DNA of 33,347 bases, taken from contig JASAOO010003262.1 of the NCBI GenBank assembly GCA_030849075.1, forward strand, positions 1 to 33,347, read 5' to 3'. The notes below the pieces were generated by a model. The model made no database searches. It saw nothing but the letters and a program-made list of their open reading frames with translations, and was not told the DNA's origin. The DNA is from Zelonia costaricensis. Taxonomy: Eukaryota; Euglenozoa; Kinetoplastea; Trypanosomatida; Trypanosomatidae. Made by a program: the position numbers and the translations under genes. Shown in pieces: positions 1,295 to 31,911 of this stretch (position 1 is its first letter; the number at the start of each line of letters is the position of its first letter).

Positions 1295-4200
1295 TCACTC
1301 GCACAGGAAGGCGTGCGGCTTGCAGGCGTCGGGGTCACGCAGCACCCGCTCAGCCTCGGCCTTCACCTGCTGCCAGTCCCACGGCATCCCGGACAAGTCC
1401 GTCGACGCGTCTGGGGACGGCGCGGGGTGCTGACGCAGCCGCGCCTCCGCCCGCTGCAGCACCTCCCGGGCACTGGAGCGGGCGGGCGGCCGGCATGGCA
1501 CCTGCATGAGCCGCATGCCAAAGCGCAGCAGCACCGCAGCCTCCTCGGCCCGCGTGTCAGCGGTGAGGCCGACGACGCCGTACGTGAAGCTGTCACCGCC
1601 CAACGCTTGCGCTAGCAGGCAGCGGCGCCACGAGCCGGCCGCAGCTCTGTGCAATGGGGAGGTCGCGGGTGCAGCCGCCGGCCGCGAGTCCGCGCCACCG
1701 CTGCCGCCGAGCGATGCCGCACGCCTGTCGAGCATGGCGTCGAAGACGGAGCACGCATGCGGGCCCTGCGCGTTCTCCGCGCCGTTCAGCACGGCGAAAA
1801 CAGAGCTCATGACCACATCGTCCACCGTCACACCGTCCGCGGCGAGGAGGACCTGCTTCAGCACAATCACGACATTCAGGGTGGCTTTGATGAAGGCGCA
1901 GGCGCGTTGGGCGTCCTTCAGGGTGAGGTAGACGTCGCCGAGGCGGCTCAGCGAAGAAAAGCGTGCGCCATCCACGCAAGACCCGAAGAAGGGCGACCGC
2001 GCGGCCCGCAGCGGGTAGAACTCGCCGTCGGCGTCGAAGAGGTCCTTCACCTGCGCCTCGGCATCCGCGCCGGGCGACGTCCGCAGGGGGTAGCGCGCCG
2101 CCGTCACGGACATGAACAGCGTCTTGCGGACCCGGCCCACGTCGTTGTTGTGGATGAGGAGGCTCACGAGCTTCGACAGCAGCGCCGAGCCCGCGCAGGA
2201 GTCGGGGCCGTCGACGGCGACGAGAGTCGAGTTGCGCCCCTGCTGCACGTGCTCGGCGATGGAGTGCAGCAGCCCGGGGCGGAGCAGGGAGGAGCTGTCG
2301 GCACGCAGCACCACCTCGGTGAAGGGGTACGTCGTGTGCCCGCTGCGCACCGTGTGGCCTTCGATGCGGGCCTCGAGCGCGGAGGCGCGCCCGCGCGGCG
2401 CCGCCGTGATGACGGCGGTGCACCGGCACTGCCCGCCACCGCCTGTGACGCCGCAGTTGACGACGCCGTTGAAGACGGCGGAGCCGCTCGTCGCCACGCT
2501 GCCGGACGGCGAGGCCGTGAGCGTGAGCTGCTGCGCCGGTCCAAACGTCGCCGACGTCTCGGGCAGCAAGCACGGCACGCCGTCGTCGCGCAAGGGGAAG
2601 ATGACGATCGAGCAGGTCGGGTCGCGCTGCATCCGCGTCAGCTCCTGCACAACATTCGCCGTCACGACACGTGCCTGCTCCGTGGCAGGACCGCTGCTAG
2701 CCCTGCGCTGCTGCAGCAACGCCTCCTGCTCGCGGATGCACGTCGAGAGACACCCGCTGGGCACCGGGGCTGATGCGCCGTAGCGCACCGATTGCCCGAG
2801 CCGCAGCGCCTCGACACACTGCGCATCGCTGGCAGACCGCAGCGTCGTGAGGCACAGCAGGTGGCACGGGCCGCGCAGGGCGTAGTGGTACAGCGCCGGC
2901 GGGGCGCCACCGCGCGGGTCCATGGCAAGGATGTCGCGCACCGCCGGCATGTCCTTGCCGATGCGCGCGGCGAACGCCGTGAGGGACGAGATGATAGTGT
3001 CGTCGCGCGTCACGTTCTTGAGCACGGCGCTCGCAATCACGATCGTACCGCTGTCGTACGCGTTGTGCAGCTCGTTCAGCGCGTGCAGGCCGCCGCGCAG
3101 GATGAACTGGCACTCTTGCAAGTTCGTCGCCCGCATCACGGTGGTGTTGCGCACCACCGGGCCGAAGAGGGGGCTGGCCGCCAGCGAGACGCGCGCGGCG
3201 AGCGGGGCCGACGAGGCCGACGCCGTCGTCTCCTGCAGGAAGTCGTACCGCAGCGTCCGGTCCTGCACAGCGCACAGGCGCAGGTGCAGCTCGCTGCCAG
3301 GCAGCCACGCGGCGTCGCCCTCAGTGTGGAAGCACGAGTTCAGTAGCACAGCCGTGTAGCTGCGCCACAGCGGCTGGGCGCGGACGTGCACGCTGGCGCT
3401 CGCCGCCTCGTCTTGGTCGTCCATGAGTCCCAGCATCGCGCAGCTCTGCCCGGCGCGCGACTTCTCCAGCAGCGACTGTACCTCCGCGCAGTCCTCGGTG
3501 AAGAGCAGCTTCATCTGTGGCTCGCCAGCCGCGTAGACGACGACGTCGTCTGTCTCGAAGTGCTCGAGGGTCGACCTCCACGTCACCTCACGGCCGAAGC
3601 GCGCCACGTGCATGGCTTTCGCCGCCTTGCCGTGCTGCTCGACGCCCACCACCCACTGCGGGTGCTGCTCCGGGGGACGGCCCACGGTGCCAGCGGACGA
3701 CCCACCAACGCCCACGTCACGCGCACTCGCGTCCACGCTCGCTGGCGCTCTTGCCGCGGGGGCGGGGGGGCGAGCTCGCGGCACCGGCGCGGGCGGTGGA
3801 GGTGGCAGCACCGGAAACACCTGCGGCCCGGGTGCGCCCGGCGCGGGTGGGGTGCGCCTGTAGCGGTCCGCCGGCAGCGCAATCGACACGGTGCGAGCCG
3901 ACGAGGGAGGCGTCGATGAAGCGGGGGCCCCGGTGGCAGGCGTGGCGGGGCTGCCGTCCGAGGCGGCGGCAGGGGCGGCGACGATGTCGCGCGGGTAGGG
4001 CGGCACGACCACGTCGTTGACGTACGACTTGGGCAGCGGCAACGTCGCGCCCGGCTCGAGCAGCGCCGTGTAGTCGTCCAGCATCTCCGTGATGCGGGAC
4101 TCCATGCGGGACAAGTGGCGCCACTCCTCGTCCGAGGCGCTGCGGGCCTTCTGCCGCCGCCGCTCGAGCCCCTTGCGGGTGCGTCGCACGAACTCCCGCA

Positions 4201-7200
4201 CGCTGCCAGAGCGCACCGGCGCCTTCTTGATCAACGGCACCGCCACGCTCGCCATCTCCATCGCGACGTCGGCATCCTCCTCGTTGTTCAGCGAGGTCAG
4301 GAAGACCGTCGCGGCCGAGCCGGTCAAGGCACCGTGGTGCAGCCGGACCACCTCCGGGTGGAGCGGCAGCCTGTCCGCTTCAACGCCGCCTGCTGACGCT
4401 GCCCCGGCCGCGGCATTAGACGCCCCTGTCGCCAGGATGCGCCGGCACGCCGAGCCGTGCGAGCCCGTCACGGTGATGCCGAACGACGACACGCACACGT
4501 CGCCGTCCACCGCGAAGAAGTTGATGAGGGAGACGTACAGGAGGGTGTCACTGGTCCACTGCGGGGTCGCGGCCTGGGCAACCTCGTGCAGCATCGGCCG
4601 CAGCGCATCCGGCGAGGTCAGCGTGCGCATGCACGCGTTGTGCACCGTGGTGCCAAACACCGGCGACGTCGCGACCTGCAGCGGCTGCATCTTTGCGCCG
4701 GGCTCAAGCAGGTCCAGCGCCTCCCCGTTGGTTCGGATGAGCGAGAAGGCGATGCGCAGGTGGCCGACGGCGCCGTCGGTGCGGCCGAGCACCTTGTCGA
4801 TTGCCTCCGCCAGCACGTACCAGACGGGGCTTGAGAAGACGTTGTCGCTGCGGCCGTCGAAGGAGAGCACGGCGGTGTTGTGGCCCGTGGCGAAAAGCGA
4901 GCACAGCGCGGTGGTGTTGGAGGCGATAGGCTGCGTGTGCAGCGGCGGCAGCACGCGGCGCGGCTTCACCTCATCGACGAAGTACGTCTTGCGGTCCGCG
5001 GCATGCACGAGGCCGTTCGAGGTGCCCTCCATCAGCTCGTACCCGCAGTTCCTCTTGGAGTCGCGAATCGCCACGGTGTGGATGCGGCAGTCGTCGAACA
5101 TCGCCAGCGCCTCCTCTGCCGTCGGAACGCGGAAGGTGTACTGGCTTGACGGGAAGCTCTGCGCCGACGAGCTGAGACTACGCATGCCGTCGTCCTGCGC
5201 CGCCCTCGCCGCTGCCGCCGCCTGCGCGCGAGCTCGTGCCGCCTTCTCGGCGGCCTCCTCGTGCGAGGCGACCCGGTCCGGGTAGAAGGGAATCGTCTCC
5301 GACCACGGGTCCTGCATGAGCGCCTCCATGCGATGCAGCAGGTCGACGCGTAGGCACTGCCGCTGTTGGGCACGGGCCCCATCGTCGACCCCCGCCTCCT
5401 CGCGCGCCAGTGCGGTGCGCAGGGCTTCAATGTAGCGACCCACGTTGCCACTCACGAGGCCACTGTTGGGCAGCGCCTTCGCCTCCGCGCACAGCGAGGC
5501 GTACGCGTCGCTGCTGCCGCTGCGATCGCTGACGCACGACGCGGCGACGGTGAAGCAGCCGTCGCCGACGCGGCGCAGGAGACTGCGCTGCAGCGGCGAG
5601 CCCGACTCCCGGTCCTGCACGAGGCCGATGGCGGCGTCTGGGCTGCGGCCCACGTAGATGAGCAGCGACGACAGCGTCAGAGTGCGCTCGCCGGCGGGGC
5701 GGGTCAGGTGGTTTGCCTGCCGCAGCGCCACGTAGATGCCGAGCGTCTCGCCGGCTTGGTCCGCCGACTCCGGCGTCTTCTCAAGCCACGCCATGACCGG
5801 CTGCAGTAGGCTCTTGATCTGGCTGCCGCTGCGCACGCTCTGGAACATGACGTTGTCGCACCACGAGCCGACGAGCGGGTTCGCCACCGGCCGCGTCGGC
5901 GCCATCGCGCCCAGCTCCTCCTCGCGGTTCACGACGAGGTCCTTCGTGCTGCGCCCGCGCTGGACGAGCGCGACAGAGACCTCCATCTTGAAGTAGTAGT
6001 CCTCCTCCTCCTCTGCGCCACCACCACTGCCGTCCCCAGCGGCCCGCGCCGGCGGGTGCTGCTGTTCCTGCTGCTGCCGCTGCTGCTGCAGCGCCTCCGC
6101 CTGGCGCTGCGACACCGCGGCGAGGACCATGTTCAGCGTCGTCTCGATCGTCCGCTCACCGAGGCCGCCGCAGCCGCCCGCGACGGACAGCAGCAACGCC
6201 GCGCAGTGCCCATCCCGCATCTCCTCCGCAATCTCGCGCAGCAGCAGCGCATCCACGTACGGCTCCGTCGACGCCTTCGCCACCGCCTCGTCCACCACGA
6301 CGCGGCAGAGGCCCTTTGCGGTGCTCCCGCCCGCGCGCACGATCGGCAGCGACACCTGCGCGCCGTTGCCGCCCGTTGGCCGCACGACCACCTTCGAGGC
6401 AGACGGCGCGAGCACGAGCAGCGTCAGCAGCCGCTCCGCCGCGAGCGCGGCCGCACTGCGCCCGCTGCTGTGGAAGCGGTTCTGGTTGGGCGAGAAGACG
6501 AACGACACGCTTGGGGCCCCGCGGGCGGGGCGGGAGGCGTAGCTGCCGAAGAGCGGCGGCGGCGGGGGCGGGCTGGGCTGGCGGGCCGCACTCGGTGGGG
6601 GCAGTGACGGCACGCAGTGCTCGGCCGTTGCCTCGAGCTGCGTCACCTTGAGGAGGTCCTGGCGCGGCTCTTCAGGCGACACAACATCGGCCCGCACGCT
6701 AGAAAGGAGGGCTGGGGTGCCGTTGCAGTCGGCGGTGGCGCTGGGGTCCACCGCGGCCTCCGAGGCTGCCACCCCCGTCGTTCCCGCAATCTCGGACGGC
6801 GTGCTGAGTGAGACCCGGCTCATGTCGCGGCCCGAGTCGACGCCGGCGAGCCACGCGCCGTCCATGTCGCCGAGACCCGCGTCGTCATCTGCGCTTTCAG
6901 GCAGCGCGGCCACAGAGAGGAAGCGGCGGCTGTAGTTCCCCTCACGGTCGTCCTCGTCGTCGCTGCGCGCGAAGCCGTCCACCATCGACGGAAGCCTGCG
7001 TGCGGCCGCGGCGCTGTAGGCGCCCTGGTAGCCGCTTGACGCGAAGTCGACGTCGCTTGGCTGGGGGTGGAGCAGGTAGGGCTCCTGCAGCGTGAGCGCG
7101 TCGATCGGCGAGGTGCCGGGAGAGGTGGTCGGTGGGCGGGCCAGCACGCCGTCGACGCAGTACTCGCGCTGGAGCCGCTCCGTCGCACAGGTGTTGGGGA

Positions 7201-8146
7201 GCGGCGGGGAATCCAGCAGCCGGCACTCGACCGGCGAGACCGCCGGGGACGGGGTGCGGCGGAGGCGCGAGACGGGACGAACTTGTGCGCTGGCGCACAC
7301 CCCGCGGAGTCGGGGTGGCGCTTGTGGCTCCACCGCCGGCGGAGCCGGCCCGCTCACGAGGAAGCTGTTGAGGTGCAGGTAGCCAGCCCCATCCATCCAC
7401 GCGTCGCCCTCGCTGAGGTCGTCCACGTCGAACAGCGACGCCCCCTCCGACGCGGACACGTTCGAGCGGATCACGTCCACGTCGTACGACGTCACCGAGG
7501 TCGTGCCGGCCGAGTTGCTGGTGGACAGCGTCAGCTGCCCAAAGCCGTTGCGCGACCCGCTCTGCCGCGACGGCCGCAGCCGCTGCACGCCGCCGCCGCC
7601 GCTCTTGTAAGCCGGGCGCAGCATCGAGTAGATGGGGGCGAGCGTGCCGTACCGGTGCGCGTCCATCCAGCGCTGGAAGAGGCCCTCGCTGCGCTGCGTG
7701 GCGGCGCTGGTACTCGGCGCGGCGCCCCAGCACTCCTCCGCACGGAGCGGCAGCGGCACATCGTGCGGCTTCAGTCCCCGCGGGATGGTGACGGTCTTGA
7801 AGCGCGGCTCGTTAGGCGCCTCGACGGCATGGAGAGGGACGACGGCATTGCCGCGGCTGCGAGGGCCGGCGGCGGCGGCGGTGGGGGAGGGCGCACTGTT
7901 TAGGCTCGGCGGGGTGGAAGACGAGGTCAGCGAGTGCTTGAAGCTCCCGCCGTAGCGAATGGAGGTGAGGGGCGGCGCAGGATCGAGTGGGTTGCTCTGC
8001 GACGCGGCAGTCGGCGAGTGCGACGCGCTGAAGGCACTGCGGCTGCCGCGGCTCCCTTCCTGGCTGCGGCTGTGTCGCTCCTCCTGCGCTGCCGCGCCGC
8101 TGCGGTTGTGGCGCGACTTGCGGCGAAAGCTAAGTCGGCCAGTCAT
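1295..8146 (-). CDS. Giant 2283-aa protein with four degenerate kinesin-head-like modules
   Basis: The ATG at 8146 (MTGRLSFRRKSRHN) is chosen because the frame further upstream runs through a C15 tract and CA repeats typical of a leader, and strong codon bias starts here. Residues 1-540 are Ser/Pro/Arg-rich and look disordered, with acidic patches near 390-400 and a polyproline run near 530. Four modules follow: about 570-958, 1018-1387, 1497-1850 and 1900-2283. A Gln-rich/acidic insert (about 685-715) lies in the first, and a Pro/Ala-rich linker (about 1388-1490) precedes the third. The modules keep kinesin-head motif order, for example GHNTAVLSFDG near 1087, SPVFG near 1160 and ALGGDSFTYG near 2180, but lack GKT/S, SSRSH and DLAGSE. 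ATP hydrolysis is therefore unlikely and a scaffold role more plausible (inference). No signal peptide or transmembrane segment is evident. It is a diverged relative of the 2056-aa protein at 25741-31911. The reading frame is intact, with no frameshift. I know of no name for it. Confidence 0.93.
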   Translation of the reverse strand: MTGRLSFRRKSRHNRSGAAAQEERHSRSQEGSRGSRSAFSASHSPTAASQSNPLDPAPPLTSIRYGGSFKHSLTSSSTPPSLNSAPSPTAAAAGPRSRGNAVVPLHAVEAPNEPRFKTVTIPRGLKPHDVPLPLRAEECWGAAPSTSAATQRSEGLFQRWMDAHRYGTLAPIYSMLRPAYKSGGGGVQRLRPSRQSGSRNGFGQLTLSTSNSAGTTSVTSYDVDVIRSNVSASEGASLFDVDDLSEGDAWMDGAGYLHLNSFLVSGPAPPAVEPQAPPRLRGVCASAQVRPVSRLRRTPSPAVSPVECRLLDSPPLPNTCATERLQREYCVDGVLARPPTTSPGTSPIDALTLQEPYLLHPQPSDVDFASSGYQGAYSAAAARRLPSMVDGFARSDDEDDREGNYSRRFLSVAALPESADDDAGLGDMDGAWLAGVDSGRDMSRVSLSTPSEIAGTTGVAASEAAVDPSATADCNGTPALLSSVRADVVSPEEPRQDLLKVTQLEATAEHCVPSLPPPSAARQPSPPPPPPLFGSYASRPARGAPSVSFVFSPNQNRFHSSGRSAAALAAERLLTLLVLAPSASKVVVRPTGGNGAQVSLPIVRAGGSTAKGLCRVVVDEAVAKASTEPYVDALLLREIAEEMRDGHCAALLLSVAGGCGGLGERTIETTLNMVLAAVSQRQAEALQQQRQQQEQQHPPARAAGDGSGGGAEEEEDYYFKMEVSVALVQRGRSTKDLVVNREEELGAMAPTRPVANPLVGSWCDNVMFQSVRSGSQIKSLLQPVMAWLEKTPESADQAGETLGIYVALRQANHLTRPAGERTLTLSSLLIYVGRSPDAAIGLVQDRESGSPLQRSLLRRVGDGCFTVAASCVSDRSGSSDAYASLCAEAKALPNSGLVSGNVGRYIEALRTALAREEAGVDDGARAQQRQCLRVDLLHRMEALMQDPWSETIPFYPDRVASHEEAAEKAARARAQAAAAARAAQDDGMRSLSSSAQSFPSSQYTFRVPTAEEALAMFDDCRIHTVAIRDSKRNCGYELMEGTSNGLVHAADRKTYFVDEVKPRRVLPPLHTQPIASNTTALCSLFATGHNTAVLSFDGRSDNVFSSPVWYVLAEAIDKVLGRTDGAVGHLRIAFSLIRTNGEALDLLEPGAKMQPLQVATSPVFGTTVHNACMRTLTSPDALRPMLHEVAQAATPQWTSDTLLYVSLINFFAVDGDVCVSSFGITVTGSHGSACRRILATGASNAAAGAASAGGVEADRLPLHPEVVRLHHGALTGSAATVFLTSLNNEEDADVAMEMASVAVPLIKKAPVRSGSVREFVRRTRKGLERRRQKARSASDEEWRHLSRMESRITEMLDDYTALLEPGATLPLPKSYVNDVVVPPYPRDIVAAPAAASDGSPATPATGAPASSTPPSSARTVSIALPADRYRRTPPAPGAPGPQVFPVLPPPPPAPVPRARPPAPAARAPASVDASARDVGVGGSSAGTVGRPPEQHPQWVVGVEQHGKAAKAMHVARFGREVTWRSTLEHFETDDVVVYAAGEPQMKLLFTEDCAEVQSLLEKSRAGQSCAMLGLMDDQDEAASASVHVRAQPLWRSYTAVLLNSCFHTEGDAAWLPGSELHLRLCAVQDRTLRYDFLQETTASASSAPLAARVSLAASPLFGPVVRNTTVMRATNLQECQFILRGGLHALNELHNAYDSGTIVIASAVLKNVTRDDTIISSLTAFAARIGKDMPAVRDILAMDPRGGAPPALYHYALRGPCHLLCLTTLRSASDAQCVEALRLGQSVRYGASAPVPSGCLSTCIREQEALLQQRRASSGPATEQARVVTANVVQELTRMQRDPTCSIVIFPLRDDGVPCLLPETSATFGPAQQLTLTASPSGSVATSGSAVFNGVVNCGVTGGGGQCRCTAVITAAPRGRASALEARIEGHTVRSGHTTYPFTEVVLRADSSSLLRPGLLHSIAEHVQQGRNSTLVAVDGPDSCAGSALLSKLVSLLIHNNDVGRVRKTLFMSVTAARYPLRTSPGADAEAQVKDLFDADGEFYPLRAARSPFFGSCVDGARFSSLSRLGDVYLTLKDAQRACAFIKATLNVVIVLKQVLLAADGVTVDDVVMSSVFAVLNGAENAQGPHACSVFDAMLDRRAASLGGSGGADSRPAAAPATSPLHRAAAGSWRRCLLAQALGGDSFTYGVVGLTADTRAEEAAVLLRFGMRLMQVPCRPPARSSAREVLQRAEARLRQHPAPSPDASTDLSGMPWDWQQVKAEAERVLRDPDACKPHAFLCE
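1298..2449 (-). other. Protein module D of the 2283-aa gene (about residues 1900-2283)
   Basis: This C-terminal module has the most kinesin-like sequence of the eight. YPFTEVVL precedes GRNSTLVAVDGPDSCAGS (1970-1987), which lines up with the kinesin GYNGTIFAYGQTGSGKT region but has no Lys-Thr/Ser. SPFFG lies near 2051, a VVMSSVFAVLNG strand follows, and LAQALGGDSFTYGVVGLT (about 2177-2194) lines up with the kinesin SLGGNxxT segment. The helical tail here is shortened and ends at the protein C-terminus. Confidence 0.5.
2597..3658 (-). other. Protein module C of the 2283-aa gene (about residues 1497-1850)
   Basis: The first strand is WVVGVEQHG. HFETDDVVVY follows, then AGQSCAMLGLMDD at the P-loop position, SPLFGPVVRNTTVM (near 1657), IISSLTAFAA and YHYALRGPC (near 1752). 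No nucleotide-binding consensus residues remain. The tail ends in a QELTRMQRDP helix, matching the DP-ending tails of the other modules. Confidence 0.45.
3986..5095 (-). other. Protein module B of the 2283-aa gene (about residues 1018-1387)
   Basis: Motifs in order: TYFVDEV (near 1054), GHNTAVLSFDG (1087), a LDLLEPGAKMQPL stretch, SPVFGTTVHNACM (near 1160), CVSSFGITVTG, HHGALTGSAATVFLTSL (near 1270), and the tail RSGSVREFVRRT ... MLDDYTALL ... PPYP. The GAK-x-MQPL-x-V-x-x-SP-x-FG-x-x-VHNA stretch also occurs in the second module of the 2056-aa protein. This is the clearest link between the two genes. Confidence 0.55.
5267..6439 (-). other. Protein module A of the 2283-aa gene (about residues 570-960)
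   Basis: This is the most diverged module. CRVVVDEAV (near 615) is followed by GHCAALLLSVAGGCGGLG (from 646), glycine-rich but without Lys-Thr/Ser. A Gln-rich then acidic insert precedes VSVALVQRGRSTKDLVV. NPLVGSWCDN replaces the SPxFG signature. LTLSSLLIYVG and LLRRVGDGCFTVAA follow, then the tail SGNVGRYIEAL ... MEALMQDP ... IPFYP. Confidence 0.4.
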
Positions 8147-8159
8147 GGCAATGGGAAGG

Positions 8160-8161
8160 CT
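8160..8161 (-). promoter_or_regulatory. Candidate spliced-leader acceptor AG for the 2283-aa gene
   Basis: On the minus strand a C15 run and an earlier CT-rich stretch (about 8183-8228) are followed by a T/G-rich spacer and then the first AG, in the context GCGGCAG. It lies 13 bases before the ATG. This fits the trypanosomatid rule of a polypyrimidine tract followed by the first AG, but a 13-base leader is short and the tract is unusually poor in T. Confidence 0.35.
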
Positions 8162-8182
8162 GCCGCGTGCACACACACAACA

Positions 8183-8197
8183 GGGGGGGGGGGGGGG
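8183..8197. repeat. G15 homopolymer (C15 on the coding strand) upstream of the 2283-aa gene
   Basis: Fifteen consecutive G on the plus strand, 37-51 bases upstream of the start codon and next to further G-rich sequence up to about 8227. It probably forms part of the splice-acceptor tract and is likely to vary in length. Confidence 0.9.
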
Positions 8198-8405
8198 CGA
8201 AGCACCCCGGGGGAGGGGGAGGGGGGCCGAGTTTCGAAAAAAGGAGCGACGCGACGAGATGAAGCGCCAGTCAGTCGAGCACGGGAGAGTCGAGCTCAAG
8301 AAGAGGAGAGACGGGAGAAAAGCAAAACAAAGGGAACACAAAGAACGCAAACAGAACACGTAGTCGCGAGCACGGGGAGCAGCGTGCGCGAACCTACAAA
8401 GTCGT

Positions 8406-8429
8406 CCACGTGTGTCGGCACACACGTGG
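8406..8429. repeat. Perfect 10-bp inverted repeat with a CGGC loop
   Basis: CCACGTGTGT and ACACACGTGG flank a four-base loop, about 260 bases upstream of the 2283-aa start codon. It could form a hairpin in the upstream transcript. Each arm contains CACGTG. No T-run follows it, so a terminator is not indicated. Confidence 0.8.
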
Positions 8430-8771
8430 CAGCGGCGCTCTCTATACACCCTTGACGACGAATAACAAAAAAAAGGCACACAACAGAACACTGACAGTGG
8501 CGCTGCGTGGGCCGACTCGCAAACGATGAGGAAACAAAAACGAGCTACGGTGTGCACAGAGAGGGAGTTTGTGGCTGAAGACAGCAGAAGACAAGCGCGC
8601 CTCTCGTCTGTTGATCAGCTGGAGCGAAACGAGGACGGGGCGTGCACGACCACGGACCCAAACAAAGACACCTACACACACACACAGAAACGACAACTAC
8701 GTGAAGACGGGGAGGGAAACAAAAAAAAAAGGAGGAAGAAGGGGGCGCGATGTGGAAAAGCAGCGGATGTG

Positions 8772-18207: not shown

Positions 18208-19212
18208 TTAGAAATCAGCGTCCTCCTGATCGCCGGCAGTGGCCTCCGCAAAGGCGTCGCTCAGGTTGCTATACGAGTGCACGTCCTCCTGGTTGAAGAC
18301 CTGCGGCACGGCCGGCGCCTCCTCGAAGACGACGGGGGCCATGTACATGTTGCCGCCGTACATGTCCATGCCGCCATGCATCGGCGGCTGCTGCGGCATA
18401 GGCGGTGGCTGCCGGTTCGCGTCCTCCATATCAAAGTCACGCGAGCGGCTCCCGTTGCCGGCCTTGCGGCGCACCTCCACATCACCCCACTGCTCGCCGT
18501 TCCGCATCGCCGCCTTGCGCTTGAAGTTGATGCCGCCGTAGCCCGTTGCGGAGCGGCCGTCCACGTTGCGGCGGTTTGTCACACGACGCGGCTTGCCGAC
18601 ATCCTCGCCCTCCTCGATGTCGCCACGGTAACTGCGCACGGCCTTGAGGCCATCCATCTTGCGGTCCTCGTTGCGGGCCGCCATGTCGCCGTAGTACTGC
18701 TTCAGCTCCGTCTCCTCCTCTTCGTCCTGCATGCCCCGCACGCTCATGCCGCCGCGTGTGCTGATCGCCACCTGCGTGTCACGCTCGCGCGCGCCGAAGA
18801 AAACACTGCCGTGGCGGGCCATCCCGGTGCCGGCGTGGTTGCTGCGCGACGCGACGGAGCGGTTGCGCGCCATGGTGCTCTGCTTCCGGTCCACGCCCGG
18901 CGGCGGACCGCTGAAGCTCTTCACAGACTTGAGGGCGCCGCCGCGCTCGTCCTCGCCGCCGTTCTTGTAGCCGTCGGCCTGGTACCCGGCGTTCTCACCC
19001 ATCATCTGCTGCTGCTGCTGCCTGTAGGGGTCCTGCATCGGCTGTTGCTGCTGCTGCTGTTGGCCGTACTGGTCGTAGCCGCCGCTGCCCTGGTACTGCA
19101 TCATCATCATCTGCTGCTGCTGATAGGTGTAGTCCTGCGCCCCGCTGTCGTTTGTGTAGCCGTCGTAGGCCTGGTCGCCGGCGTAGCCCTGGTCGTAGCC
19201 GCCGTAGTACAT
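18208..19212 (-). CDS. 334-aa Tyr/Gln/Gly/Met-rich low-complexity protein, function unknown
   Basis: The ATG at 19212 (MYYGGYDQGYAGDQ) is chosen because the frame upstream is a hydrophobic/His-Thr string translated from pyrimidine and CA-repeat DNA. Residues 1-72 are prion-like: YG/YD-rich with poly-Gln runs (31-34, 51-57, 65-69) and MMMM. Residues 90-265 are charged and basic with many Arg-x-x-Ser-type sites (RKQST, RNRSVAS, ARHGSVF), and an acidic patch at 163-168. A motif occurs twice: GALKSVKSFSG (92-102) and DGLKAVRSYRG (187-197). Residues 266-334 are Pro/Met-rich with GGMDMYGGNMYM (280-291) and end acidic (GDQEDADF). No enzyme domain, signal peptide or membrane span is seen. The MYG motif echoes the N-terminal third of the 2056-aa protein upstream in the same cluster, which suggests a shared assembly or compartment (inference). 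I do not recognise the family. The codon bias is strong, so the gene itself is secure. Confidence 0.92.
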   Translation of the reverse strand: MYYGGYDQGYAGDQAYDGYTNDSGAQDYTYQQQQMMMMQYQGSGGYDQYGQQQQQQQPMQDPYRQQQQQMMGENAGYQADGYKNGGEDERGGALKSVKSFSGPPPGVDRKQSTMARNRSVASRSNHAGTGMARHGSVFFGARERDTQVAISTRGGMSVRGMQDEEEETELKQYYGDMAARNEDRKMDGLKAVRSYRGDIEEGEDVGKPRRVTNRRNVDGRSATGYGGINFKRKAAMRNGEQWGDVEVRRKAGNGSRSRDFDMEDANRQPPPMPQQPPMHGGMDMYGGNMYMAPVVFEEAPAVPQVFNQEDVHSYSNLSDAFAEATAGDQEDADF

Positions 19213-19230
19213 GATAGGCGAATTGGGTAA

Positions 19231-21947: not shown

Positions 21948-22996
21948 AACCACACGAAAGCTGTGGACAAGTAGGTAAATGGGGGAGGCGCAAGCCAGCA
22001 CTGGAAGACACCGAAACGTGAAGAGAACAAAAGAAGTGCGCACGCGGAATGGCGACGAGGAGTGGGGCGGTGGCTCAGCAGGTACACGCCGGAGGGAAAC
22101 AAGGGAGGCGGAGGGAGAGAGGTGATCTGTGTAAGGAGATTCGATGGCAGCGGAGCAGCACTGGGGGAGAGAGACGAGAAGGCGGTGAGACGGCGTCGAG
22201 CGAGGGGCTTGACAGGAGATCAAAGTGCCGCACAAGACAACAGAAGAGGAAGGAAAAAGGACGCTGAGACCGGCTGACTGACCACATTGCTGGCACCCAC
22301 CGTTGCCTTCGTATACGGAGGGAGGGAAGGGGGGGGGCCCGGGGGCGTGAAAGACAAAAAAGGGGCACTGAGCCACACACAGAGAGAGCAACATAGAGAG
22401 AGAGAGCGGAGCGAGAGTGGGCACCCACGCGAGCACCTGACAACACGGGAAGGTGGACAACGCCACAAAGAACCGCAAGGAGCAATAGCGTGAAGTCAGT
22501 AGAAGGGAAATGGTTGACGGAGACTCTTCATGGCACAACCAAATCGGCGCGCCAGATACACGCGGGAGTTCTCCGCACAGATCGAGAAGAAAAAAAAAGC
22601 GCGCAAACTCCTGCTTTCGTCTCTCGTCACATGCAGGCTGGCGGCGACGCGGTGGTGGGTCTTCCTCTTGTTGTTTATTTTTTTGTCTGTTCCTCCGGAG
22701 CTTGCTGTGCCGCACAAAAGCCTGAGGCAGCGCATCCTGACAAACACGCGCGCCGGGGGGAGGAGGGGGGGAGAGGGGACGAGCGTGAACGAAGAGGGTG
22801 ACGCCATGAGTGACATTATGAAGCACACACACACAAAAAAAAAGCACTAAAGAAAAGCAGCTGCGGAAACTGCAAGATGACAGTGCCGCCACCATTCTCA
22901 CTGTCTTGCCCTTGCCCGTCTCTGTGTTCAGGAAGCACTGATGTTGCTGCCGATACACACATTTGACTTCTCTTCTTGTTGGGGGAAGAGGGGGAG

Positions 22997-22997
22997 N
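22997..22997. other. Unresolved base (n) in a G-rich run
   Basis: The only ambiguous base in the window. It sits between G-rich runs, so it is probably a sequencing problem in a homopolymer region. It affects no supported gene. Confidence 0.99.
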
Positions 22998-25740
22998 GGA
23001 TGGGGCGAAGGGGGGGAGGGAAGGTGTGCTACGCGGAGAGCGGCGAGGGGAGCTTGATACGGCACGCAGCACGGCATCCACGTGGCGCCCCCCCCTCCCC
23101 TCCCTCCCTCTCACGGCGGGACCCCCTCGCGGAAGGCCGTAACATCGGGTTGCACAACAGCGCACATTGCCATGCACACACACACACACAAACAAACAAA
23201 AAGAAAGGGAAAAGGAAAAAGATGGTCATCAACGCACAAACGCAGAGAAAAAAAAAACAGAAAACAGATGTGACCAAAAAAAAAAGGTACAAAACCCCAA
23301 AACGGCAGCAGTACAGCGGGAGAAAAACAAACGCAAGGCAGGACAGCAGTGCAAGCGCGCGTCGGGTCGGGGGTCGGAGAGGCGGGGGCGGAGAAAGGCG
23401 AGAAAGGGGCCCCCACTTGCCAGAGAGACAGCGAGGAACAGAGACGATGAGAGTACAAAGCAGGTGGAGACATCCACGAAGAACAAGAGGCGAAGAAAAC
23501 GAAAACACAAACGTGCAGACACCGCAGCATCACAGACACCCACGAGCCCAGCGCCAATAGTCGCAAAAAAAAAAAAAGACGACACAGACGCATTCGTAGT
23601 GCCGTGTACGTTGCCCACTATTTTTGTTTTTCTCCAAGAAGAAACAACAACAGTCAAGAAGAGGACGCACGCACGTGCGTGCGCCATAACGATGAGGATT
23701 CCGCTTGACCCGCTCCACCGGAAGCGAAAACAAAAACAAAAAAGAAAGGGCGTTGCGAGGAGCGACTACGCGGTACCAACGCCAGCAACGCGCGTCCTCT
23801 ACCGCTTCTGTTTTGTTCCTGTTTTGGTGTTGTTGTTGTGACTCGGTGTTCCAGCGCGACGTGCTAACATGCGATCAGTCCGCTGCCAACGGGGCTGAGC
23901 GAAGGCACCGAAACGGGCAAGGACCAAAAAGAAAAACGAAGCGGAGGCGTGGAGGGGGGAAAGGGGGTAGTCTAGAGCGATCCACAAAGCAAGGAGACAA
24001 CGACGCAAATACGGAAACGCAGCGAGTATGGGGATGTGGAGGAAGGGGTTGGGGGTGTGGGAGGGGGGGGTTGTGGCTCAGGGAGGACCGCGCAGGCGCT
24101 GCCACGAGATCAGCGGGAGTCGAGGTGGAGAAGAGAGGGGGGAAAGGGCCAATAATAAGAAGACGTGAAGGCAGAGGAGCGGATGGCACAGGGGAGGGAG
24201 CAGTGAGCCGACGAGTGAAGGACGGTGTCGGGCTCGCAAAGATCGATGGCGTCTCCATGGACGAGGAAATACAAAAGAGAAACACAAACGAGGGGAAAGA
24301 GGAAGCACGGCGCGAAAAAAAAAAAAAGAAAAAGAAGAAGGGGCTTGCACTTCTACGCACATCAAGCTGTCGGCGTTGTTCACGCAGCTGCAAGAAGCGC
24401 CAGCGAAGGGAATAGGCATCGTCCGAGAATGGCCAACTTGAGCTTGCGCACACACGCCCACGCACGAACACTCTCAGGAACACGCAGAGCATTCGTCTTT
24501 GTTGTTGTTGTTTTCCACTTTTTTGGTTCTTTTTTTCCCGTCGCGAACGCGGACTTTGAACACATGTGCGTTGTTGTGCCCTATTCCTTCGTGGGGTAAA
24601 GGGGAAACGTGTGCGTGCGTGTTTGTGTGTGTGTGTTTTTTTTCCGTGTTCGTGTGATTGCCGCGAGAGAAAGACAACGGTTGATGTGTCGGTAGGGCAC
24701 CACGGCGAGAACCAACAAAACAAACAAAGAGTGTCGAGAAGCTCGAAAGAGAAGAAAACACCAAAACGCGGGTTGCAGACAGCCGCGAAACGAGCAATAC
24801 GCCAACGCATTCCTCTGCACGCCAAGCGGGAGAGTCAAGGAAAAAGAAAGAAACGGAGTGCCACAATCAGCACACGTGTCAACAAGGCGAAGAGAACAAC
24901 GTGAAACCCAATACAAACGTGAACAATGAGCTGCTACTTTCACGCCAGCACCGTCGTCGGCAGCGCGGCCGCGGGAGCAGGGAAAATCTGACCTGCGCTG
25001 CGGCGCGTGAGCGTTGGGGAGAAAGAGAGAGAGAGAGACGAAGGGGCGAGAATGCGAAGGTGACACACAAACCCGAACGCAAAGAAGAGGGCGCAAGGCG
25101 GGTGCGAGTGAAGGCGGACGAGGACGAGGAGGAGGAGACGAGGAGAGGCACTGCGGCCACGAGAACCTCCTGAGTGGTACTGCTCCCGCCTCGCAAGACA
25201 CATTCAAACCTGGCCTCCCAACCAAGCTCCGCGGGAGAGCAAGCTGCGCGTGCCGGTGAGCACGATTGAAGGTGGAGGTGGAGAAGAGCGGCACGCCAGT
25301 GACGACACCGACGCCTGCACAAGACAAGAAAGGAAAGAGACAGAGACAGAGAAAAGGGGGAGAAGAGAACTATGTACGAGGACGAGAGAGAGAGAGAGAG
25401 CAGGGGCGGGGACGTCACCGTGGATCACACACTTCATTTTCTTCTCTGCTTTGCGGCGCTTGCGCCGCCGCGAAGAGGCACAGGACAGCACGCAGCAGCA
25501 ACACACACACACACAGAAGCGCCACACAAGCGCGCACGCTCCGGCACAACGACGCGAACATCGACGGGATCAGCAGGTAAGACAGGGGAAGGGGAGAGAG
25601 ACACACAGGGAGGGGAGAAGAGCGGTCACGGAACGATAGGGGAGGCGCGGGCGCAGCGAGACGACACCGGAAGAGCAGAACCCTGGAAAGGATGACAGAG
25701 CTCCGCCGTAGAAGCCGATGGTGCGCCGCCACGGCGCAAC

Positions 25741-28700
25741 TCACGCGTACGTGCTGGGAACGCGGCCCTCGGGCGACTCGATCAGCGCACGCGCGTCGGT
25801 CACCATCCGCTCCAGCGACACCGCACGCTGCTCGTACACCTTGCGCTCGTGATCGTCGGCCGCCTGCTTGGCGCGGCCCCGGACATCCGCGACGGCGTTC
25901 ATCGAGTACATCATGAAACGCTTCACGCTGCCGTTGCGCATCGGGCGGTTCTCGATGGTGCGCATCTTCGTGTACACGGTGAGGCACTCCGCCAGGTCCT
26001 CCTCGTTCACCTTGTCGGGCAGGCCGAGCACGCCGACAGTGTAGCAGCTGCCGTGCACGGCGTACTGGTAGAGGCGGCGCTCGTCCTTCGGCGCCACGTC
26101 GACCACTGCCGCGTACACGTCCGGGCGCGTGCTGAGCGACATGAGCAAGCTGCTGACCACCACGTCATTCTTCTCCACGGTCTTGAGCACGAGCGACACC
26201 ACCAGCACGGCGTCCTCCTTCGCGGCGGCGGCGTTGCCGGCGCGGAACGCCTCGTCGAACCGCGCCGCGTCGCGCAGCGGTTCCATCGTGGCGTTGTGCA
26301 CCGACGGTCCGAAGATCGGGGAGTTGCTCACCTTCATGGGCGCGTAGCTGTCCGCACTGCCGCCCTCGACCAGCAGGTCCCTGCACTCGCCCTGTCGGAC
26401 CACCGCCATGGACATGTACAGCTCCGAGTTGGCCGGCCTCATCTCCAGCACGGTGGCCGCCACCTTGCTGCACGCCGACGGCCCGGCACTCGAGCCGGCC
26501 ATGTCGCAGCACAGCAGCGCGGCGTTGAACCCGCTCACGAACTGCTGGGGCACAAGGGCCAGCTTCTCCGACCGCACGGCGGCGCTCTGGTCGAGGCGGC
26601 TGACCACCTCGTCGCACTCCACGCTCCGCTCCGCCCCGGAGATCACCGCCATCACGTGCGTCCCATCCGCGTGGACCACGGGCACCACCGCGGCCGTCGA
26701 CGACGGGGTGCTGCGGCACGGCGTCACGACGACGACAGACTGAATCGGGTTCTTCGCGGGCGCAGGCTTCTGCCCCGCCGGCGTCGCGCCGGGTGTCGGC
26801 GTCGTCGTCGCCTTTGCGTCCATGTGCTGCCGCGGCGTGGGCGTCGTCGTCGTGCCCGCCTCGGCCGGCGTCGCCGTGGCTGCCTGCGGTGTCCGGCGCG
26901 ACACACCGGGCGTCGCGGCGGGGGTGGCGGACGAGGACGCGGCCGTGGCCGCCGCCGCAGCGGCCGGCGTCGAGCCGTTTGCGGCGTGCGGTTGTGCGGC
27001 GCCAGAGACGGCACGGCCTGCTGGTGGGCTGCGGCTGCTGTTCACGCGCGTGACCGGGTAGGCCGGGATCGGCACGGTGAAGTCGCTCAGCAGCTTCCTG
27101 TGGTCGTCCACCACGGGCTGCAGGCGGCTGACCTTCTGCTGGTGCCGCTCCCGCGACTCGTCGGTCGCACTCGCCGCGCGGGTCTGCTCGCGCTTCAGCG
27201 CGCTCTCCGTGTACTTCACGAACGCCTGCACGCTGCCGGAGCGGCTGACGAGGTTGCGCTGCCGCTTGCTGATGGCCACTGCCGTCGTCACCATGTCCTG
27301 CGCCGTCTCGTCCTCGGCGCCGATGTTCAAGAGGGTGACGGTGGCGCTCGGGCCGCCGTAGGCGCTGCTCAGCAGCGTGCGCCGCGTCACCGGCGCCTTC
27401 TCGAGTGCCTCCTTGTACGCCTTCACCGACGCACCGGTCAGCGTGCCCGTCAGGGAGGCAACGAGCACGTCGCCATCGCTCGTGCGGCGCCGCAGCAGCG
27501 CCGTGCCGATCATCATCGCCTCGCCGTTTCGGATCGACGCGAGGTGGGCCGCGACGTTCGCGTGCACCTTGTCCATCCACCGCCCCAGCTCATCGGCGTT
27601 CTGCGCGGCCACGCTGCGAGCGTTCTGAATGCGCGGGCCGTACACGGGCGACGACGCAATCTCCAGCGGCCGCGGGGCCTGGTGGCGCTCGTCGGACAGC
27701 AGGTCGACGAGGAGCTCGTCGGCGGCCACCACGGCGAAGTTGAGGTCGAGGCGCATCTCCTCGCCCGGCTTTCCACCGGCGAGGGCGTTGTTGAGGCACT
27801 GCTGGAAGTACATCCACACCGGCTCCTCCACCGACTGCCCCTCCGCGGACGAGCTGGCCGAGATGAGCGAGCAGTTGTGCACGCCAGCGAAGCGCGACTC
27901 GAGCTCGGCCACGTGCACGCAGGGGCCGGTCGATGTGCTGGTCGACGTCTTGACCCGCTTCACCACCTCGTCCACCGTGTAGTCCTTGTTGCCCAGTGAA
28001 AGCTGCTTCTCCCCCTCCGCCACGTCGCGGGCCACGAAGGCGACCACGCGCGGCTCCGTGAAGGCGGACGAGGCCGAGTCGTCGGGCCTCGCGGCCGGCG
28101 CGGCGTCCGCGGCGGCGGGCTCACCCTTCGGCGACGACGACTTGTTCGCCGCCTCGAGGCTCGGCTTCTCGTGCGCTGCCGACGCCGCCTTCGCGTCGTC
28201 GCCGGCAGCCTCCTTGTTCGCCGTCGTGTCCGCCGCGTACGCGCGCGGGAAGTTGTTCGCGGGGTCAGCCATGACGCGCTCGTGGTCGCCCAGCATCCGC
28301 TCCATCGGAGCCATCACCTTCGCCATGGCCGCCCGGTCTGGCGCGTCGGCCGGCAGCGTCGCCAGGCGCTCGCGGCGCTTCTCCAGCGACGCCTTTGTGT
28401 ACGCAATGAAGTTCTTGATGCTGCCCTGCCGCGGCGAGCGGTTGCGCACGCTGCTGGCCGAGTGCTGCCTCTTCAGCGACGCCGCCGCTTCGGCCACCTG
28501 GTCGGCGCTGCCGAGCGAGACGACGAAGGCCGACGTGGCCGCGCCGCCGAAGGCGTAGCGGAAGAGATCCCGCATTCCGTGGCCCGGCTGCTGCTGCTGC
28601 TCCAGCACCTCGTCGTACACCGTGCACGTCGCGGCGGCGAAGGAGACGAGCAGCGATGAGACAAGCACGTCGTCGCCGTGGGCGAAGCAGTGCACCACCG

Positions 28701-31700
28701 TGACGTGCACGGCGCTGTTCGCGGCGCTCCAGTGCCCCTTCACCTGCTCCCGCGCCCGGTCCACCAGCTTCTGCAAGTCCTCCTGCGCGCGGACGCGGTG
28801 CAGGGTGGCGTTGTGGACGATGGGGCCGAACAGCGGCGACGACGACACCTCGAGCGGCTGCATCTCCGCCTTGGCGCCTGTCGTCGTCAGGTCGCACGCC
28901 TTGCCCGGCTGGTGCACGAGAGCGATCGAGACGCGAACGCCCTTGCAGCCCGGGTTCGCCAGCGCGCTCGCGACGGCCGTGTAGACGAAGCCCATCGCCG
29001 GCGACTCCATCCCGTTCGCCGCCAGCGCCACGCTGTCCGCCGCGATCACCGCGCCGTTGTAGCCCTTCAAAAAGGCACTCAGCACGCGGGCGGTCGTCTT
29101 CGTCTCCAGCGCCGTCGACTTGGCCGCGTCGCGGGCGATCACCTCGTCCACGGCAAAGGGCCGACCACCCGCCGTCACCGTCGTCCCGGCGATCGAGTAG
29201 GCGCGCGTCTCCGTCGCCTCGGCGATCACGAGCGTGGCCACATTCGTGCCCCGCGGCTTCTGGTCCGCGGGGGTCGCCGCCGGCGTGGCGGACAACGCGG
29301 CTGGGGCGGCGGCCCCACCGGTCGGGGACGCCGCGTCGTTCGCTGCGGCCTTGGCCTTCGTGGCCGGCGTGGCGGACACCGCGGGTCCCGCTGCCGCGGC
29401 AGCCTCTGGAACGGCGCGCGACTTCTGCTCGGCCGGGCTCACCTCCGCCACGGCCCTGCTGTCGCTCGCGTCGGCCGTGTAGACGTGCGGGACGACGTTC
29501 TTGGGGTCATCCAGCAGCGTCTTGGCGTCCTCCAGCACGACGGACAGGCGCTTGAGGCGGCTCTCCAGCGGCACCTTCTCGGCCCCACTGCACTCATCGC
29601 AGCGCTTCCGCATTGCCGTCAGCTGCGTCTCGGTGAAGTCGATGAAGCGGCGCATGTTGCCGCTGCGGGCAGCCGTGTTCTGCACGGCGCCGATCTTCTC
29701 GGCGTCCTGGAGGAGCTTGGCGTCGGAGGAGTCCTTGTTGACTGCCACAACATGCGTGCACACTGTCGGGCCCTCGAGGGCGTAGCGGAACACATCGCCA
29801 GGGGCGGCAGGGTTCTTGTCGACAATGTCGTGGAATGCCTTGGCGCCGCTGCCGCTGACAGCGATGAAGACGGACGCGATGAAGACCTCCTCCTTTGCGT
29901 CGCCGGCGGCGCGGCGCACCTGCCGCACCACCAGCATGAACACCCGCATCGCTTCCTTGTCGCCGCGTTGCATGGCTGCCTCGAAGGACTTGGCAAAGTC
30001 GGCACTCGTCGGGATCTCCTGCGAGGTGAGGTCCATCGCGGTGGGGCCGTATAGGGGCGAGTTGCCCATCCGCAGCGCCTTCGGCTTGGCGTCGTCGACA
30101 AGCAGGTCGCACACCGTCGTCGCGGTGGGCAGGCTGTACGCCGTCAGCGAGAGCGCGGCGAACGAGTTGCGGGCCGGCTTGAGCATCTCCTCCAGGAGCC
30201 GCGCCACCGTCGACTCCACCGCCGCCTTGGCGGCCACCGCGGCCTTGCTCTCCGCCGACACGAGGATGGCGGTGTTGTGGCCCACCAGCACGTGCTCGAC
30301 CAGATCGCGCAGGTGCCGCGACTCCACCTTCGCGTCCTTCTTGTCCAGCTTGTACTCGACGACCTCATCCATGGCGTACGACTTGCCGTTGACCACGCAC
30401 GCGTCTCCCTTCTTCGTGATCGCGCCGCCGCTGGCATCGGCCTGCTCGATGATGACCACGTTGTGGACCTTGAAGTCGGTCGACAGCGGCGGAGCCGCGC
30501 CGGCGGCACCGTCGCCGGCCCGCTGCTGCCGCGCCGCCGTCGGCGACTTCGGGGCCTCCGTGATGGACGGGTGCTTCTTCATGATCGACTCGGGCTTGCC
30601 AGTCCCATCGCGCGCCTTCGCGTCGGTCGTGTCCGCCTTCGCCTCCTTGTCCGGCACCGTGGTACCGTCCTTGTCTACGCCGGTGGCACCGCGCGGGTGT
30701 ACCTTCGTGCCGTCGTCCGACTTGCCCGCCGACGCCTCGTGCTCGCTGGCCTTCATCGAGGTCGACGTGCGGAACGTGTTCTCCCACGCGCTGCCGCCGC
30801 GCGGCGGCGCGGCCGACGCGTCGTCGCGGAAGCTTGGGTTGTACGGGACGGAGTCGAGGTTGGAGCCGAAGCAGTAGGAGAAGTTTGGGACGGAGAGCTT
30901 GCGCACGACACCGAGACTGGTGTGCGGGCCGCCGACGTAGTACATCGAGCCGAAGCCGCCGAACATGGAGCCACCGCCGCCACCAGGGCCGTACATGCTG
31001 CCAAAGCCGTTGCGGCTACTCGCCCCTTGGCCGCCGTTCTCGTTGGCGTAGAGGGAGCCGCCGCCGCCGTAGAAGCTGCCGGTCGAGCCGAACATGGAGC
31101 CGCCGTACAGCTTGCTCTCGAAGCCGCCGCCGTAGCCGCTCATGCCGTAGCCACCGCCAGCACCGCCCATCGAGCCCATCGGCATGCCGCCCATGCCGTA
31201 CATGCTGCCCATGCCGTACGTGCTGCCCAGGCCGTACGTGCTGCCCATGCCGTACGTGCTGCCGCCCATTGGACCGCCCATCGGACCGCCCATGACGTAC
31301 ATCGACCCCATTGGAGCCGTCATCATGTACGTGGGGCCCGTTGCACCCCCCATGCCGTACATGCTGCCGTAGCCCGCGCCGTGCATCGTACCGACCGCGT
31401 CCTGCATGGCGTACATCGAGCCGTTGCCGTTGAGGCCACCGGCAGGCCCGCCCGGGCCCTGCATGTAGCTGCCGGCACCGGTGCCATACATGCTGCCCCC
31501 GTTGGGCTGCAAGGAGCCACCACCGTAGCCGTAGCCGTAGCCGTAGCCGTAGCCGGGGACGCCGCCGCGGATGCTGCCCGTTCTTTGGCCGAGCCCATTC
31601 CCAGCCGGTGGCGGCGCCGCCGCCGCCGCGGCCGGCCGGGGCTGTCCCGGTGTCATGGCGGCGCCGTTGGGTGCCCCCGCACCCCAAGCACCCGCCGGGG

Positions 31701-31911
31701 TGGCCTGCGGTGGCTTCGCTGCGGCCGCGTTGCCCGGCGCTCGGGCTCCGCCGGTGGGTCGGCTTCCCGTTCGCATCGTCGCTGGCGTCGCACCCATCGG
31801 CGACGCGCTGCCGTTGCCGGGGCGCCCCGAATTGGGCTTCGTCGCGGGCGAGGCGGCCGGGGCCTTTGACGTGCCCTGCGGCGTCGCCGACTTCACATGC
31901 GCAGGTGGCAT
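25741..31911 (-). CDS. Giant 2056-aa protein: GSMYG-rich N-terminus plus four degenerate kinesin-head-like modules
   Basis: It starts at the first ATG of the frame (MPPAHVKSATPQGT). Residues 1-118 are Pro/Ala/Gly-rich. Residues 119-131 are GYGYGYGYGYGGG. About 132-328 are Gly/Met/Tyr/Ser-rich with many GSMYG/GSTYG units. Residues 338-363 (LSVPNFSYCFGSN...) are complex and may be a small docking segment. About 364-480 are charged linker. Four modules follow: 481-815, 889-1227, 1286-1620 and 1723-2056, joined by Ala/Pro/Thr linkers with a recurring ATPA-x-QKP motif. Each follows kinesin-head motif order (for example AMDEVV, GHNTAILV, SPLYG, FIASVFIAVSG, FRYALEGPT in the first) without the P-loop Lys, switch I or switch II, and ends in a GS[VIM]-x-x-F-x-x-[YF]T helical tail. 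Predicted: non-motor scaffold, possibly cytoskeletal (inference). It is paralogous to the protein at 1295-8146. The frame is intact, and no signal peptide or membrane span is seen. Confidence 0.94.
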   Translation of the reverse strand: MPPAHVKSATPQGTSKAPAASPATKPNSGRPGNGSASPMGATPATMRTGSRPTGGARAPGNAAAAKPPQATPAGAWGAGAPNGAAMTPGQPRPAAAAAAPPPAGNGLGQRTGSIRGGVPGYGYGYGYGYGGGSLQPNGGSMYGTGAGSYMQGPGGPAGGLNGNGSMYAMQDAVGTMHGAGYGSMYGMGGATGPTYMMTAPMGSMYVMGGPMGGPMGGSTYGMGSTYGLGSTYGMGSMYGMGGMPMGSMGGAGGGYGMSGYGGGFESKLYGGSMFGSTGSFYGGGGSLYANENGGQGASSRNGFGSMYGPGGGGGSMFGGFGSMYYVGGPHTSLGVVRKLSVPNFSYCFGSNLDSVPYNPSFRDDASAAPPRGGSAWENTFRTSTSMKASEHEASAGKSDDGTKVHPRGATGVDKDGTTVPDKEAKADTTDAKARDGTGKPESIMKKHPSITEAPKSPTAARQQRAGDGAAGAAPPLSTDFKVHNVVIIEQADASGGAITKKGDACVVNGKSYAMDEVVEYKLDKKDAKVESRHLRDLVEHVLVGHNTAILVSAESKAAVAAKAAVESTVARLLEEMLKPARNSFAALSLTAYSLPTATTVCDLLVDDAKPKALRMGNSPLYGPTAMDLTSQEIPTSADFAKSFEAAMQRGDKEAMRVFMLVVRQVRRAAGDAKEEVFIASVFIAVSGSGAKAFHDIVDKNPAAPGDVFRYALEGPTVCTHVVAVNKDSSDAKLLQDAEKIGAVQNTAARSGNMRRFIDFTETQLTAMRKRCDECSGAEKVPLESRLKRLSVVLEDAKTLLDDPKNVVPHVYTADASDSRAVAEVSPAEQKSRAVPEAAAAAGPAVSATPATKAKAAANDAASPTGGAAAPAALSATPAATPADQKPRGTNVATLVIAEATETRAYSIAGTTVTAGGRPFAVDEVIARDAAKSTALETKTTARVLSAFLKGYNGAVIAADSVALAANGMESPAMGFVYTAVASALANPGCKGVRVSIALVHQPGKACDLTTTGAKAEMQPLEVSSSPLFGPIVHNATLHRVRAQEDLQKLVDRAREQVKGHWSAANSAVHVTVVHCFAHGDDVLVSSLLVSFAAATCTVYDEVLEQQQQPGHGMRDLFRYAFGGAATSAFVVSLGSADQVAEAAASLKRQHSASSVRNRSPRQGSIKNFIAYTKASLEKRRERLATLPADAPDRAAMAKVMAPMERMLGDHERVMADPANNFPRAYAADTTANKEAAGDDAKAASAAHEKPSLEAANKSSSPKGEPAAADAAPAARPDDSASSAFTEPRVVAFVARDVAEGEKQLSLGNKDYTVDEVVKRVKTSTSTSTGPCVHVAELESRFAGVHNCSLISASSSAEGQSVEEPVWMYFQQCLNNALAGGKPGEEMRLDLNFAVVAADELLVDLLSDERHQAPRPLEIASSPVYGPRIQNARSVAAQNADELGRWMDKVHANVAAHLASIRNGEAMMIGTALLRRRTSDGDVLVASLTGTLTGASVKAYKEALEKAPVTRRTLLSSAYGGPSATVTLLNIGAEDETAQDMVTTAVAISKRQRNLVSRSGSVQAFVKYTESALKREQTRAASATDESRERHQQKVSRLQPVVDDHRKLLSDFTVPIPAYPVTRVNSSRSPPAGRAVSGAAQPHAANGSTPAAAAAATAASSSATPAATPGVSRRTPQAATATPAEAGTTTTPTPRQHMDAKATTTPTPGATPAGQKPAPAKNPIQSVVVVTPCRSTPSSTAAVVPVVHADGTHVMAVISGAERSVECDEVVSRLDQSAAVRSEKLALVPQQFVSGFNAALLCCDMAGSSAGPSACSKVAATVLEMRPANSELYMSMAVVRQGECRDLLVEGGSADSYAPMKVSNSPIFGPSVHNATMEPLRDAARFDEAFRAGNAAAAKEDAVLVVSLVLKTVEKNDVVVSSLLMSLSTRPDVYAAVVDVAPKDERRLYQYAVHGSCYTVGVLGLPDKVNEEDLAECLTVYTKMRTIENRPMRNGSVKRFMMYSMNAVADVRGRAKQAADDHERKVYEQRAVSLERMVTDARALIESPEGRVPSTYA
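25744..26745 (-). other. Protein module 4 of the 2056-aa gene (about residues 1723-2056)
   Basis: Strand QSVVVVTPCR, then VECDEVVSRLD, GFNAALLCCDMAGSSAG (from about 1793) at the P-loop position, CRDLLVEGG (compare the kinesin vRDLL), SPIFGPSVHNATM (near 1863), VVVSSLLMSLS, YQYAVHGSCYTVGVLGLP (near 1947), and the tail RNGSVKRFMMYS ... LERMVTDARALIESP ... PSTYA ending the protein. The Lys-Thr/Ser and DLAGSE residues are absent. Confidence 0.55.
27052..28056 (-). other. Protein module 3 of the 2056-aa gene (about residues 1286-1620)
   Basis: EPRVVAFVARD, DYTVDEVVKRV, GVHNCSLISASSS (near 1341), LLVDLLSDE, SPVYGPRIQNA (near 1420), VLVASLTGTLTG, LLSSAYGGPSATVTLLNIG (near 1512), and the tail RSGSVQAFVKYT ... 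LQPVVDDHRKLLSD ... IPAYP. The nucleotide-binding consensus is missing. Confidence 0.55.
28231..29247 (-). other. Protein module 2 of the 2056-aa gene (about residues 889-1227)
   Basis: NVATLVIAE, PFAVDEVIARD, FLKGYNGAVIAADSVAL (Gly at 950; compare the kinesin GYNGTIFAYGQT), CDLTTTGAKAEMQPL, SPLFGPIVHNATL (near 1024), VLVSSLLVSFA, DLFRYAFGGAATSAFVVSLG (near 1113), and the tail RQGSIKNFIAYT ... MERMLGDHERVMADP ... FPRAYA. It best matches module B of the 2283-aa protein. Confidence 0.6.
29467..30471 (-). other. Protein module 1 of the 2056-aa gene (about residues 481-815)
   Basis: KVHNVVIIEQ, SYAMDEVVEYKLD, LVGHNTAILVSAESKAA (Gly at 544), VCDLLVDD, SPLYGPTAMDL (near 618), VFIASVFIAVSG, DVFRYALEGPTVCTHVVAVN (near 705), and the tail RSGNMRRFIDFT ... 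VLEDAKTLLDDP ... PHVYTA. The order and spacing follow a kinesin head, but the catalytic residues are gone. Confidence 0.55.
30930..31520 (-). repeat. Coding low-complexity region with GSMYG/GSTYG units
   Basis: This stretch encodes residues about 132-327 of the 2056-aa protein. The densest tandem part (about 31190-31265) alternates STYG/SMYG with MG or LG spacers. The units are irregular elsewhere. Expansion or contraction between strains is likely because the repeats are in frame. Confidence 0.85.
31525..31557 (-). repeat. In-frame (TAC GGC)-type repeat encoding GYGYGYGYGYG
   Basis: Five Tyr-Gly pairs are encoded by an almost perfect six-base repeat, at residues about 119-129 of the 2056-aa protein. 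Confidence 0.9.

Follow-up and report, generated by a model that had tools for sequence, protein, structure and literature searches.

The window analysed here is the whole 33,347-nucleotide stretch of contig JASAOO010003262.1 (C452 in our numbering) of Zelonia costaricensis (GCA_030849075.1), and the genome searched alongside it comprises 28.7 Mb in 755 contigs. Its main gene encodes a protein with a long N-terminal part followed by four tandem modules. By sequence comparison these are homologous to kinesin motor heads, and they lack the motor motifs. The protein very likely belongs to the ARND family of kinetoplastids and is probably a scaffold, not a motor. A preliminary description, made from the letters of the DNA, had proposed four such modules in this 2056-residue chain, and the open reading frame proved to be real. 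A search of 5.8 billion proteins returned 11 full-length relatives (50–60% identity, 100% of the queried residues 480–2056 covered), exclusively from Leishmania, Novymonas, Porcisia and Leptomonas, so that the source organism probably belongs to the same group. Coordinates are collected in Table 1.

Table 1. Genes and protein parts located in the window, with what identifies each
Feature	Positions	Strand	Description	Basis
Four-head ARND-like gene (main gene)	25741..31911	-	2056 codons, one stop-free open frame	11 full-length relatives
N-terminal part	30478..31911	-	478 residues, Gly/Ser/Met/Tyr-rich, 9 GS[MLIF]Y motifs	motif count against shuffles
Module 1	29467..30477	-	residues 479–815	
Module 2	28222..29256	-	residues 886–1230	
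Module 3	27046..28062	-	residues 1284–1622	profile homology to modules 1, 2 and 4; model poor
Module 4	25744..26751	-	residues 1721–2056	
Second four-head gene, same family	1295..8557	-	open reading frame of 2420 residues, first ATG at 8146	match 2e-23, iterated profile
Second gene, head 1	5273..6439	-		9.1e-75, iterated profile that includes this head
Second gene, head 2	4013..5092	-	sister of module 2 in tree	support 99/96
Second gene, head 3	2594..3670	-		iterated profile
Second gene, head 4	1298..2437	-		iterated profile
Gene between the two four-head genes	18208..19212	-	334 residues, Tyr/Gly/Gln-rich start	no Pfam match

The four modules are related to one another at the profile level. 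All six module pairs score 98.0–99.7% in profile–profile comparison, including module 3 against modules 1, 2 and 4 (99.4, 99.4 and 98.0%), and pairwise identity to modules 1 or 2 is just 22–27%. Chance repetition was rejected on the strength of profile scores relative to shuffles. The motif order first proposed recurs in every module, and none of the 5000 composition shuffles made per module shows it, but its V-x-[SA]S-[LVF] element as written fits module 4 only, as did our first, stricter version of the pattern; the corrected [IV][AS]S[LVF] fits all four. Because the pattern was written from these same modules, the shuffle result is a sanity check and no independent test.

The homology to kinesin, previously inferred from motif order, is supported by profile comparison and by PDB sequence and structure matches that rank kinesins first. 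For comparison, 65 matches to the Pfam Kinesin family (PF00225) in this genome were condensed to 30 loci and then to 25 heads, the partial loci L023, L024, L028, L029 and L030 being left out. A profile of 90 family modules aligned with these kinesins at 97.4% (E 1.3e-11); the alignment takes in 229 columns, beginning at the FDxV strand and reaching LGGNSKT, whereas 15 shuffles scored at most 0.5%. Taken singly, modules 1–4 scored 95.9, 12.2, 48.1 and 88.8% against the same heads, with 20 column shuffles of each at or below 3.6%. Pfam Kinesin itself matched residues 908–1065 of the main protein (7.5e-08, 32.2 bits, cut-off 29.3), but no other module was listed for it. Weak Pfam matches to FA_synthesis (0.0044) and RRM_occluded (0.11) fell under their own cut-offs and were discarded. 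Against the PDB, a profile of the window's eight modules gave 104 matches at E values up to 10; the best 60 of the 104 are all kinesins, headed by KIF14 at 2.1e-11.

Structural modeling and structure searches predict a kinesin fold for three of the four modules, with kinesin as the best structural match for modules 1, 2 and 4, in agreement with the fold expected from the letters. The top sequence and structure matches are the kinesin-3 heads KIF13B (6a20) and KIF14 (6wwe). A different fold was rejected because both types of search rank kinesins first. In the models, each module of about 340 residues consists of a head and a C-terminal two-helix hairpin, and the linkers have predicted local distance difference test (pLDDT) values below 50. 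These linkers and hairpins, like the low-complexity N-terminus, bear on disorder and coiled coil. Each head would follow the kinesin fold up to and including its final strand and helix; the chain would run on at the neck-linker place (N-x-x-x-R-x-G-[SN]) and then end in the hairpin. Directly after the neck-linker place, all four modules carry R-[SQN]-G-[SN] (residues 749, 1161, 1557 and 1992), a conserved element that is a possible regulatory or docking site.

The nucleotide-binding motifs are gone from these heads. The absence of GKT/S, SSRSH and DLAGSE from the four modules, as originally described, is borne out: neither GxxxxGK[ST] nor SSRSH occurs in any of them or anywhere in a set of 91 domain rows that represents 27 proteins, and even a loose switch II pattern, D.AG.[EN], is found in none of the window's eight heads. 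That pattern appears in just two of the 91 rows, both of them module 4 (in P0002 and P0010), where it lies at the P-loop place. The heads could in principle be unusual but active nucleoside triphosphatases in which another loop replaces Walker A, and the single-head relative P0037 (Trypanosoma melophagium) keeps GAGKGCGKA at the place of the Walker A loop. We regard such activity as very improbable, since unrelated sequences stand at the P-loop place in all 22 heads compared from this genome, SSRSH is missing from all 91 rows, and Walker A is also described as not conserved in the available portion of PMC13416946. The GAGKGCGKA of P0037 may, judging by its sequence and place, be a remnant of a lost P-loop.

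The heads are also predicted to differ from kinesins at the face that would meet the microtubule. Loop L11 and helix alpha4 of kinesins are a main contact with the microtubule, and the equivalent stretch is predicted to be much shorter here. Between the end of the switch II strand and the LGGN place lie 23–60 residues in the 90 modules (median 25, at most 29 in 73 of 90). Each of the 25 kinesin heads needs 39–74 residues (median 43) just to get from switch II to where the L12/alpha5 motif begins; the equivalence of these end points depends on the profile alignment. The kinesin distance was taken to the L12/alpha5 motif in place of LGGN; a stricter LGGN pattern was found in only 7 of the 25, at 52–85 residues from switch II. 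These heads would therefore be expected to bind microtubules poorly. Vik1, the non-motor partner of Kar3, binds microtubules without ATP, and four such heads could likewise act as a static microtubule cross-linker. The predicted kinesin fold would suit this role, as would the retention, in the 90-module profile alignment, of beta5 and of the helix preceding the LGGN position. The shortened stretch and an alpha4 only 9 residues long in the model of module 1 argue the other way, and we judge static cross-linking to be quite unlikely.

The N-terminus has a composition of its own. GS[MLIF]Y occurs nine times in the first 478 residues, compared with a mean of 0.0 and a maximum of 1 in 200 shuffles. 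Each of the 11 relatives has 5–9 copies of the motif, and two single-head paralogs have 5 and 9, but four proteins from the neighbour gene's family have none; in 200 shuffles of each tested protein the maximum was 2. From this composition, our guess is that the N-terminus self-associates.

The four-head arrangement is old and belongs to a larger set of paralogs. In a tree of 42 heads, with several long branches and good support for only 17 of its 39 inner ones, each module of the main protein falls together with its counterpart from Novymonas, Leishmania mexicana and Leptomonas (100/99 to 100/100). The same four heads stand in the same order in the relatives from Leishmania, Novymonas, Porcisia and Leptomonas, and the four-head order therefore predates these genera. 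Module 1 groups with single-head paralogs (99/98), and the sister of module 2 is head 2 from the second window gene, whose six relatives (P0014–P0019) each have four heads too. A genome search with one module gave 17 matches, representing the two window genes and eight others. At least 14 heads are spread over those eight, each gene having one or three, and some frames are incomplete. The paralogs form an array: the window, C199 and C298 each carry two of the genes, on contigs that are short. On C199, the three heads of L050 group with modules 1, 3 and 4 (99/98, and weakly at 94/65 and 83/46), as if it were a paralog that lacks module 2. One single-head paralog has relatives (18 proteins) that extend to Strigomonas, Angomonas, Phytomonas and Trypanosoma brucei.

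Between the two four-head genes lies a 334-residue gene that begins MYYGGYDQGYAGDQ...; it is at most a candidate part of the four-head system. The flanking stretches 8558–18207 and 19213–25740 are long, with reduced G+C, strong AT skew and no clear gene, and are perhaps long untranslated regions. Nine open reading frames in or near them have no Pfam match, and Rfam and tRNA scans of the window found nothing.

The ARND family was named in PMC13416946 (PNAS, 20 July 2026), on whose available portion the following statements draw. Members of the family are those retrieved from KIAP4 by iterative BLASTP at 1e-5, and 11 of them are from L. mexicana. Loss of KIAP4 impairs adhesion, 7 of these 11 give a strong signal in the adhered flagellum, and the best-studied member aids parasite attachment inside insects. 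The paper suggests a role in protein interaction and compares the family to septins. Because the main protein very likely belongs to this family, it is probably a scaffold and not a motor; its link to adhesion would come through family membership, that is, through KIAP4 and localisation in L. mexicana. We consider it likely that this four-headed protein, with a predicted kinesin fold and no ATP-binding motifs, works in the flagellar adhesion plaque as a multivalent scaffold that does not itself move. With no ATP cycling and an altered microtubule face, the heads would act as protein–protein docking beads on flexible linkers, and the GS[MLIF]Y-rich N-terminus would add weak self-association. 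More tentatively, several chains from one array, each with four kinesin folds devoid of a nucleotide site or normal microtubule contact behind a tyrosine-rich, self-associating tail, may together build the insect-attachment plaque.

Another possibility, suggested by the name POMP22, is a tether at the mitochondrial surface: the heads would link the organelle's outer membrane with the cytoskeleton and leave adhesion to other family members. One relative of the main protein, P0004, bears the name POMP22, POMP22-1 and POMP22B appear in a list in the available part of PMC7952579, and PMC13416946 counts the mitochondrial T. brucei POMP22B as an ARND member. That paper calls POMP22B the exception among the T. 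brucei paralogs, however, and the POMP22 name was transferred by homology inside a large family, so we hold a mitochondrial tether to be unlikely.

Several observations weigh against the main reading of a kinesin-like ARND protein that acts as an adhesion scaffold. On the sequence side, modules 2 and 3 alone are weak against the 25 kinesins, the main protein as a single query reaches PDB kinesins only at E 0.84, and none of the 65 matches of the whole-genome PF00225 search lies within the window. With a profile built from single-head relatives, KIF4 came up at 6.5e-4, but so did the unrelated Nup54 at 2.2e-3. The module 3 model is poor, with a mean pLDDT of 50.6 for modules 3–4, and the scaffold role, the hairpin and the altered microtubule binding are all predicted or inferred. 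As for the family, the L. mexicana relative P0003 was not matched to any LmxM number of PMC13416946. According to the same portion of that paper, some members are not in the adhered flagellum and no Crithidia fasciculata paralog increased in adhered cells. If the scaffold role is true, kinetoplastids converted a motor fold into scaffold beads, and the counts of heads, linkers and tails across the array would be a direct handle on construction of the adhesion plaque. There is also a warning for annotation: Pfam calls some relatives kinesin, yet motor motifs occur in none examined here.

Comparison with known systems places the protein closest to the published family. As described in the available portion of PMC13416946, ARND proteins have a nucleoside triphosphatase-like domain with kinesin as best structural match and Walker A not conserved, one or more domains each, and a chromosomal paralog array in a kinetoplastid, features that the main protein shares. 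They also have predicted coiled coil and disordered regions, and the main protein may share the disorder. It differs in having four heads, and the terms microtubule, tandem, glycine, tyrosine, low complexity and switch do not appear in the available main text. The main protein is a new member of that family, with four heads and some anatomy not mentioned there. Literature searches on ARND or KIAP4 gave no other paper on the subject among the matches listed. A search for single polypeptides with two motor domains gave no paper, and one combining pseudoenzyme and tandem terms listed one paper, on Kif26b; neither shows absence from print. The kinesin-3 heads KIF13B and KIF14 share the fold and the motif order from FDxV to LGGNSKT, but the modules lack Walker A and SSRSH, have a short L11/alpha4, occur four per chain and, in the models, carry a helical hairpin for the neck coil. 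Vik1 and Cik1 share with the modules a kinesin-like fold without a nucleotide site, but are fungal, have one head per chain and are paired with an active motor. These Kar3 partners are called nonmotor in the available part of PMC3338639.
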